Below are positions 40,256-41,398 of a DNA stretch of 46,411 nucleotides, one piece after another (the stretch's first letter is position 1; every line of letters begins with the position of its first letter). A program made the position numbers and the translations under genes. The DNA lies in assembly GCA_030749725.1 (NCBI GenBank), contig JASMJM010000139.1:1-46411 (forward strand), read 5' to 3'. The stretch is from Pseudomonadales bacterium (GTDB lineage Bacteria; Pseudomonadota; Gammaproteobacteria; Pseudomonadales; Azotimanducaceae). The notes below the pieces were generated by a model. It was not told the DNA's origin. It saw only the letters and a program-made list of their open reading frames with translations, and searched no databases.

Positions 40256-41183
40256 GTTTTATTACCCTGTCGATTTCGGACATATCATAGGGCGTTAATT
40301 GATAGACGTAGTAATTGAGCCAGTTGGAAAACAGTAGATTACCGTGACACTTCCACGTCACGATGGGATCTCTACTGGGATCATCGTCGGGGAAATAGTT
40401 CTCCGGGATAGCCGGATTAATTCCTGCTTTGAGATCCCTTTCATATTCATCCTTAAGGCACAGCGGCTCATATTCTGAATGTCCGCTGATGAATAATTGC
40501 CGACCATCTCTCTTAACAACTATGTTGGGTCCGGCGATCTCTGATTCGGAAATGATCTCCAGTTCTTTGCAGCGACGAATGTCTTCACTGCGCACCTCAC
40601 CATTGCGTGAATGGGGGCTATCGAATACATCGTCAAAACCTCTAACAATCGGCGACAGGGGATTGTTGAGGTAATGCGAGTAGACGCCGGAGATCTTCTT
40701 GTCACGCACAAACTTGGGAATACCATAGAGGTGATACAAGGCGGCGTGCACCGCCCAGCACAGATACATCACCGAGGTGACGTTGGTAACCGTCCAGTCC
40801 ATGATCTCTTTCATATCTTCCCAGAAGCTCACTTCAGTGAATTCAAGCAAGCCGAGTGGCGCCCCGGTTATGATCATGCCGTCAAATTTGGATTCCTTGA
40901 CATCCCGAAAATCCTTGTAGAATGTCTCCATGTGTTCGATTGGTGTGCTCTTCGACGGTTTGTCGTGAATGCGCATCAACTGGACATCAACCTGCAATGG
41001 TGTGTTGGACAACAGCCTTAACAGGTGGATCTCGGTTTCGATTTTCTTGGGCATCAAGTTCAAAAGCAGAATGCTCAGCGGTCGAATATCCTGATGCTTG
41101 GCCGAGCTATCCTGCATGATGAAGATATTTTCGTTCTGCAGAACTTCCACGGCAGGTAGATTATCGGGTATCTTGATCGGCAT
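40248..41183 (-). CDS. metA: homoserine O-succinyltransferase
   Basis: Activates homoserine in the first committed step of methionine synthesis. The 311-residue protein is colinear with E. coli MetA from the first residue (MPIKIPDNLPAVEVLQ). It has nucleophile Cys142 in MYLCWAVHAALY, His235 and Glu237 in SGHSEYEP, and the conserved HGNLLFSNWLNYYVYQLTP end. Residue 111 is Gly (TGAPLGLLEF), which in this family goes with succinyl-CoA rather than acetyl-CoA use. The frame extends to 41276 but homology starts at 41183. The stop codon lies inside the REP-like hairpin. The leader carries a SAM-II riboswitch and terminator. It sits inside an acyl-CoA catabolic cluster on the opposite strand. Confidence 0.95.
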   Translation of the reverse strand: MPIKIPDNLPAVEVLQNENIFIMQDSSAKHQDIRPLSILLLNLMPKKIETEIHLLRLLSNTPLQVDVQLMRIHDKPSKSTPIEHMETFYKDFRDVKESKFDGMIITGAPLGLLEFTEVSFWEDMKEIMDWTVTNVTSVMYLCWAVHAALYHLYGIPKFVRDKKISGVYSHYLNNPLSPIVRGFDDVFDSPHSRNGEVRSEDIRRCKELEIISESEIAGPNIVVKRDGRQLFISGHSEYEPLCLKDEYERDLKAGINPAIPENYFPDDDPSRDPIVTWKCHGNLLFSNWLNYYVYQLTPYDMSEIDRVIKRK

Positions 41184-41264: not shown

Positions 41265-41299
41265 AAAAAAACCCACTCAGCTATCGCTAAAGCAGGTTT
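41265..41299 (-). terminator. metA: riboswitch-controlled intrinsic terminator before metA
   Basis: Read on the minus strand, a stem with TTTAGC paired to GCTGAG around a GATA loop, extended by ACC/GGGT, is followed at once by seven T (complement 41265-41271). Its 5' strand overlaps CTTTAGC (complement 41286-41292), which can instead pair with the aptamer's GCTAAAG. Termination would occur about 80 bases before the metA start codon. Confidence 0.7.
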
Positions 41300-41353
41300 T
41301 ACTCTTTAGCTGTATTTCTTAAGCGCCCGCAAGCTGATATCAAATCGGCGCCT
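41300..41353 (-). ncRNA. SAM-II (SAM_alpha) riboswitch aptamer
   Basis: On the minus strand the leader reads AGGCGCC (41347-41353), then GATTTGATATCAGCTTGC, then GGCGCTT (41321-41327), AAGAAATACA and GCTAAAG (41304-41310). P1 is seven pairs (AGGCGCC with GGCGCUU, one G-U). The spacing and conserved elements follow the SAM-II pattern: P1, a GAUUU-containing loop ending UUGC, an A-rich linker, and a 3' AGCUAAA pseudoknot strand. Its position before metA agrees with SAM feedback on methionine synthesis. The match is from memory of the motif, with no covariance search. Confidence 0.75.
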
Positions 41354-41369
41354 TTTTAAAGAGAAGACT

Positions 41370-41398
41370 ATTCTAAATTAGAGTACTGATTGGGTCAA
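41370..41398 (-). promoter_or_regulatory. sigma-70 promoter of metA
   Basis: On the minus strand TTGACC (41393-41398, five of six) and TAGAAT (41370-41375, five of six) are separated by exactly 17 bases. Transcription would start near 41363, about ten bases before the riboswitch P1 stem. This supports the riboswitch being the transcript's 5' end. Confidence 0.75.

Follow-up and report, generated by a model that had tools for sequence, protein, structure and literature searches.

The window (the whole stretch of 46,411 nucleotides that was analysed) carries on its minus strand, from 41398 to 41265, a leader located between metA and a divergent thiolase-like gene (41589 onward). The elements of this leader and of the gene that follows it are collected in Table 1.

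Table 1. Elements of the metA leader and its downstream gene (positions in the window).
Feature	Position	Strand	Details
Sigma-70-like promoter	41370..41398	-	TTGACC 41398-41393, 17-nt spacer, TAGAAT 41375-41370; 10/12 consensus matches
SAM-II aptamer	41304..41353	-	Rfam SAM_alpha match; model R1 of relatives; conserved strands
Aptamer P1	AGGCGCC 41353-41347 / GGCGCTT 41327-41321	-	7 pairs, one G-U
Aptamer conserved GATTT	41346-41342	-	sequence
Aptamer loop strand CUUGC	41333-41329 (TTGC 41332-41329)	-	sequence; A-rich linker downstream
Aptamer 3' strand GCTAAAG	41310-41304	-	pseudoknot P2 strand
Antiterminator	GCUAAAG 41310-41304 / CUUUAGC 41292-41286	-	perfect 7-bp complement
Intrinsic terminator	41265..41300; arms 41300-41286 / 41281-41268	-	loop GAUA, one bulged U, T7 41271-41265
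metA, homoserine O-acyltransferase (HTS family), 311 aa	40248..41183	-	Pfam HTS 437 bits

A sequence check recovered all the elements that the first-pass annotation had placed in this leader (promoter, P1, GATTT, TTGC, GCTAAAG, CTTTAGC and the seven-T tract), each where it had been placed. Promoter-like sites number two, against 0.8 expected per 500 bases, and transcription would start near 41363. The metA ATG at 41183 was picked by comparing relatives, and comparison with relatives also upholds metA as the target of the leader. In NCBIfam, a slightly longer frame of this gene scores just under the cut-offs of both MetA_succinyl (473.4 bits, cut-off 495) and MetA_acetyl (447.3 bits, cut-off 460.5).

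The aptamer was assigned through Rfam and through a model built from relatives. SAM_alpha (RF00521) is the best of 4227 Rfam families over the stretch, with a full-length match of 29.8 bits (E 6.9e-5 for 501 bases, 1.2e-4 in the whole-genome search). The minus-strand SAM_alpha search proposed in the first-pass annotation yields the match, but with a score below the gathering score of 36, which is why Rfam at default settings gives no hit in the window. Model R1, derived from an alignment of 25 leaders of the family, order and class from which the window and L001 were left out, gives 74.9 bits (E 5.8e-19) for the window and 70.0 bits for L001. Applied to 80 named MetA loci it yields five strong matches, two of which (L032 and L035) share DNA with the training rows L010 and L015, while L033, L034 and L037 are non-training rows; the next best locus scores 12.7 bits. 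GAUUU, UUGC and GCUAAA, which the window shares with the RF00521 consensus, are invariant across the 25 aligned relatives. P1 is paired in 98.0% of their cells, and both partners change in three of its six pairs; P2 is paired in 96.8%, with four of its five pairs invariant and the fifth varying only through unpaired cells, which leaves P2 without covariation support. The exact P2 pairing in the window presumably follows the general SAM-II fold.

The genome of the window holds two SAM-II copies, the second (G000:C137:5774-5851, 33.1 bits) preceding a cystathionine gamma-synthase family gene (PRK05939, 686.6 bits, cut-off 555). Among 110 loci read from the family and the order, 105 fit the aptamer pattern, the window and L001 included; they come from 64 genomes and 15 genera. 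Five loci were dropped: judged by eye, L179 and L189 seem to be diverged copies, and the other three (L026, L184 and L188) resemble chance hits. Fifty-five of the fitting leaders precede metA, 43 precede relatives of the PLP enzyme of L001 and seven other genes. The SAM-II identity proposed earlier is thus supported by the Rfam ranking, by R1 and by the relatives, and the metA leader is confirmed as a genuine SAM-II element that carries a transcription platform, its binding of SAM being predicted from sequence; the finding is secure because of the comparative evidence.

Concerning the expression platform, the terminator hairpin is predicted at -15.3 kcal/mol (z -4.14; none of 200 shuffles as stable) and the antiterminator alone at -7.2 kcal/mol (z -2.38; 3/200 shuffles as stable), the whole leader being not unusually stable (z -1.13; 34/200). 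A simple terminator scan does not list the hairpin of the window, whose stem carries the bulge. The 7-mer match of the window, taken alone, is within chance, since 4 of 50 shuffles (8%) of the short partner segment score at least as high. When the growing chain is folded, computed without pseudoknot P2 and without SAM, the antiterminator is complete once the 3' end reaches 41286, at -18.5 kcal/mol free versus -11.9 kcal/mol with GCUAAAG held; terminator pairs enter the optimal fold at 41273, and at the U-tract (41265) the terminator is ahead at equilibrium by about 7-9 kcal/mol (-26.2 to -28.7 versus -19.3 to -19.7). Since the terminator wins at equilibrium, the SAM-free state must rely on kinetics and, by this folding model, an antiterminator-based switch must decide during transcription, within about 20 nt.

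The relatives yield most of the information on this platform. A simple fold filter finds a terminator after the aptamer in 94 of the 105 leaders and none in 11, L029 among them. A TTYRGY strand, i.e. the complement of GCUAAA with G-U allowed, lies at most 110 nt away in 87 of the 105, with two rows showing one A-C mismatch, and the antiterminator helix is reached by no more than 5% of 50 shuffles in 63/94 leaders and by more than 5% in 31/94, including the window. Because GCUAAA is nearly fixed by the aptamer, a covariation test must use its flanks, and it was run on 25 genus-by-gene groups, each represented by a single leader, with 200 redraws. Beyond the core, the helix continues for 2.22 further pairs on average, versus 1.38 (sd 0.20) with partners swapped between groups, with a mean p of 0.0002, which like the other covariation p values is a guide only because shuffling does not fully model relatedness. 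Excess pairing with the predicted partner amounts to +0.21 for both the base before and the base after GCUAAA, each the highest of 18 columns, the best other column giving +0.09 and +0.14, respectively. Columns +7, +8 and -3 lack a clear register-specific excess at the level of the 25 groups; column +7 appeared significant (3/2000 permutations) when all 87 leaders were counted ungrouped. An example of a compensated pair is found in L020, which precedes metK in a neighbouring family and combines GCUAAACAG with CUGUUUAGC, as its relatives likewise do. Hence, the predicted covariation of the two 7-mers holds for both core-flanking pairs in the expected register, and the trade-off between GCUAAAG/CUUUAGC and the terminator that had been put forward is supported by the 7-bp complement, the frequency of terminators and the covarying flanks.

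SAM-II aptamers with core antiterminators also stand before metK in L020 and L191-L197 (family f27), and a related design before metN in L025, L198 and L204 (family f8); the metK and metN calls come from scans of the L020 and L025 proteins, the other loci being judged by similar protein starts.

On these data we give a probability of about 0.9 to the reading of the metA leader as a SAM-II OFF switch that acts by transcription attenuation, with predicted SAM binding, termination and kinetics. We infer, with good support, that the terminator forms in the SAM-bound state and the antiterminator in the SAM-free state. Polymerase leaving the promoter would make the aptamer first. With SAM bound, GCUAAAG would be held in P2, as in the known SAM-II fold, and CUUUAGC would be free to pair with 41281-41268, so that the hairpin and its U7 would end transcription. 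When SAM is scarce, CUUUAGC would be bound by GCUAAAG immediately after its synthesis, the terminator would be delayed and polymerase would reach metA. The same design appears to stand before the second methionine gene of the genome and to recur in many families of the class. There, the strand covered by the antiterminator is the ligand-binding one, which would set antitermination and SAM in competition for the same bases.

A further segment at the likely 5' end of the transcript, CUCUUUA (41363-41357, minus strand), could pair, around the aptamer, with UAAAGAG (41308-41302) and, if transcription begins there, could compete with both switch states. By eye, it is absent from two relatives, L003 and L009.

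The strong equilibrium preference for the terminator would also suit a constitutive attenuator that limits metA at any SAM level, with an aptamer that acts weakly or through RNA stability or the released leader RNA. The case of Sinorhizobium meliloti metA points the same way, as the terminator 3' of its SAM-II aptamer lacks a predicted SAM response, and short leader RNAs accumulate (PMC9373788). Such an attenuator would, however, not need an antiterminator strand conserved in register with flanks that covary with those of the aptamer, and we consider it improbable.

Much less probable still is a translational switch in which SAM-bound P2 hides the ribosome-binding site. Direct occlusion is the SAM-II mechanism presented in a 2024 review (PMC10907184), and L029, where the fold filter finds no terminator, has GCUAAAGAGGAG just before its ATG. 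The metA start of the window, however, is about 120 nt past the aptamer with the terminator between, and the conserved distal strand CUUUAGC would be left without a role. The translational reading was thus rejected for the window on account of distance and terminator, and kept for L029. This SAM-II copy before a PLP gene (L029, 1501-1577 and downstream) is a translational-looking version that occurs beside transcriptional ones in the same family.

The least credible alternative, chance matches or an unrelated leader hairpin, could appeal to the sub-gathering SAM_alpha score, to the 4/50 shuffles that reach the window 7-mer and to RF02424, which scores almost as well on the other strand (28.7 bits, gathering score 70), but it faces the R1 score of 74.9 bits, a metA or PLP context in 98/105 leaders and the pair counts of the relatives. 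RF02424 (Bp2_287, a Burkholderia sRNA candidate) matches, at full length and below gathering, the plus strand of the window (41266-41386) and also, among five leaders scanned, two other SAM-II leaders in antisense (L234 1478-1586 and L207 1479-1605, both plus strand). It hence seems to represent the opposite strand of this element, and was rejected as an antisense reading of a SAM-II leader; RF02424 itself may have been modelled on a SAM-II leader in the wrong orientation.

Having retained transcription attenuation for the window, we compared the register of the antiterminator across taxa, register being where the strongest helix lies that joins the 3' region of the aptamer to the 5' side of the terminator. 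Of the 105 leaders in the family set, 94 have a terminator, and this helix covers core GCUAAA in 74 of them, another position in 16 and the extension beyond the core in none, with four weak cases. The order set, i.e. 23 newly returned loci from 43 matching genomes, 12 of them from family f27, has the core in 17, a weak helix in three and no terminator in three, the core being used in 4/6 families. The class set (46 loci from 118 matching genomes, of which 30 were returned and 16 are hand-picked lower-scoring ones) gives 27 core, five mixed, five weak and nine without terminator, with the core in 23/36 families. No extension helix occurs among the 23 order or the 46 class loci.

The distribution in other classes of the phylum differs: extension in 23 of 54 loci, core in one, mixed in two, weak in 15 and no terminator in 13; by family, extension in 6/17 and core in 1/17. 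The first 30 of these loci are the best-scoring ones, a choice that favours the GC-rich extension present in the Rfam model, and the remaining 24, lower-scoring, show fewer clear helices (three extension, one core, two mixed). Rows that do not fit the aptamer pattern, 9/54 in other classes and 1/46 in the class (L239), were classed individually from sequence, as was L253: L279, L281 and L253 as extension, L285 and L291 as weak, L239 as core, and L276, L286, L289, L290 and L293 as having no terminator. In L270 and L281, both from other classes, a core complement with two G-U pairs is present as well, which counts against a strict division between core and extension. From the sequences compared, it looks as if the gammaproteobacterial antiterminator usually covers the invariant ligand-binding strand, while other classes, where a helix is clear, mostly use the strand beyond it.

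These results can be set against the known SAM-II systems. The Agrobacterium metA element (PMC1273637) resembles the window in P1, the pseudoknot strands, a near-consensus promoter just 5' of P1, a methionine gene and a putative terminator. Unlike alphaproteobacterial SAM-II, the window has no match to the GC-rich stretch that follows GCUAAA in Rfam, scores below gathering and has its antiterminator over the core. The S. meliloti metZ leader (L316, 80.7% identical to L255) likewise has a SAM-II aptamer followed by an intrinsic terminator, and SAM binding is predicted to cause termination (PMC9373788); it differs in its antiterminator candidate, GGCCGG/CCGGUC, which lies beyond the core (extension type), and no complement of core GCUAAA is seen in this leader. 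The compact metX-type SAM-II (PMC10907184) belongs to the same aptamer class and differs in being translational, with the ribosome-binding site inside the aptamer; of the 105 leaders, L029 looks like an example of this kind. The beta-proteobacterial metXZ element shares with the window a methionine gene and a proposed terminator/antiterminator, and is described as a different element with an unknown ligand (PMC4239095); we set it apart by this description.

SAM-II looks common in the genomes searched. Five family loci have a 400-base stretch identical to one in named records, of which three carry the label Gammaproteobacteria (UBA4475, RS426 and MED698), one that of the OM182 clade, placed in Gammaproteobacteria by the NCBI taxonomy, and one only Proteobacteria; on this ground the class is taken here to be Gammaproteobacteria. 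SAM_alpha matches at E<=0.01 are found in 25 of 97 genomes (the own genome and relatives), 16 passing gathering, and in the family in 66/206 genomes, 39/206 above gathering, two of the 66 (loci L184 and L188) looking by eye like chance. The draws from order, class and phylum, which overlap, give matches in 43/390, 118/369 (E<=0.001) and 58/299 genomes, with 15/390, 30/369 and 49/299 above gathering, respectively; the class genomes were sampled evenly. As most of the class matches fall below the Rfam cut-off, standard annotation would miss most of them. None of 14 named control genomes has a SAM_alpha match, and a plasmid search with the leader DNA returned nothing. MetJ was found in 0/97 of the own genome and relatives, and in 4/369 class genomes, none of them in the SAM-II list, which are too few to test exclusion between MetJ and SAM-II.

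Both aspects that the first-pass annotation had called notable turn out to have precedents. The presence of SAM-II in a gammaproteobacterium was overstated as a surprise, given the class matches above and a 2007 paper that reports it in alpha- and gamma-Proteobacteria and Bacteroidetes, with a frequent terminator link in alpha and beta (PMC2258182); Alpha-, Beta- and Gammaproteobacteria are likewise named in a paper of 2009 (PMC2704228). Most descriptions of SAM-II concern Alphaproteobacteria, and a survey published in 2014, covering about 200 genomes of proteobacteria, found it only in Rhizobiales and Rhodobacterales (PMC4239095). Terminator-type control is not new either, putative terminators having been ascribed to many SAM-II leaders in 2005 (PMC1273637). 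The more unusual feature, on which that annotation did not remark, is that the antiterminator uses the aptamer core itself. This register looks like the new part, and the leader of the window like a member of an apparent class-wide variant. A limited literature search found no description of a core-capturing antiterminator, which is weak evidence of absence.

It should be noted that some copies depart from the common layout. Five of 235 loci (L207, L225, L234, L239 and L305) have a second SAM-II-like aptamer whose start is 93-113 nt downstream of that of the first and which, in the sequences read, is placed between a terminator-like stretch and the gene; Rfam at E<=0.1 does not list these second copies, and tandem control by the paired aptamers is possible. 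Genus g32 (L021, L179 and L189) has aptamer-like copies, of which L179 and L189 deviate in the core letters (GCTAGA, or CAGC in place of TTGC), and the 195-aa frame downstream of L021 has no Pfam match; judging from sequence, decay or an altered ligand may be suggested. L121 and L186 are extra SAM-II copies with core antiterminators before proteins with twin-arginine-like starts, the L186 protein matching no Pfam family.

The leader of the window is thus ordinary in kind, being built on a known sensor class. We lean, with some reserve, towards a widespread gammaproteobacterial SAM-II sub-design in which the antiterminator captures GCUAAA, read-through and SAM compete, and which would provide the main methionine control in many lineages without MetJ. 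If the core-capturing antiterminator is true, one aptamer class would have two switching strands in different bacterial classes. Whether an expression platform can evolve within a binding site could then be tested cleanly, and a panel of leaders would be at hand for kinetic work.
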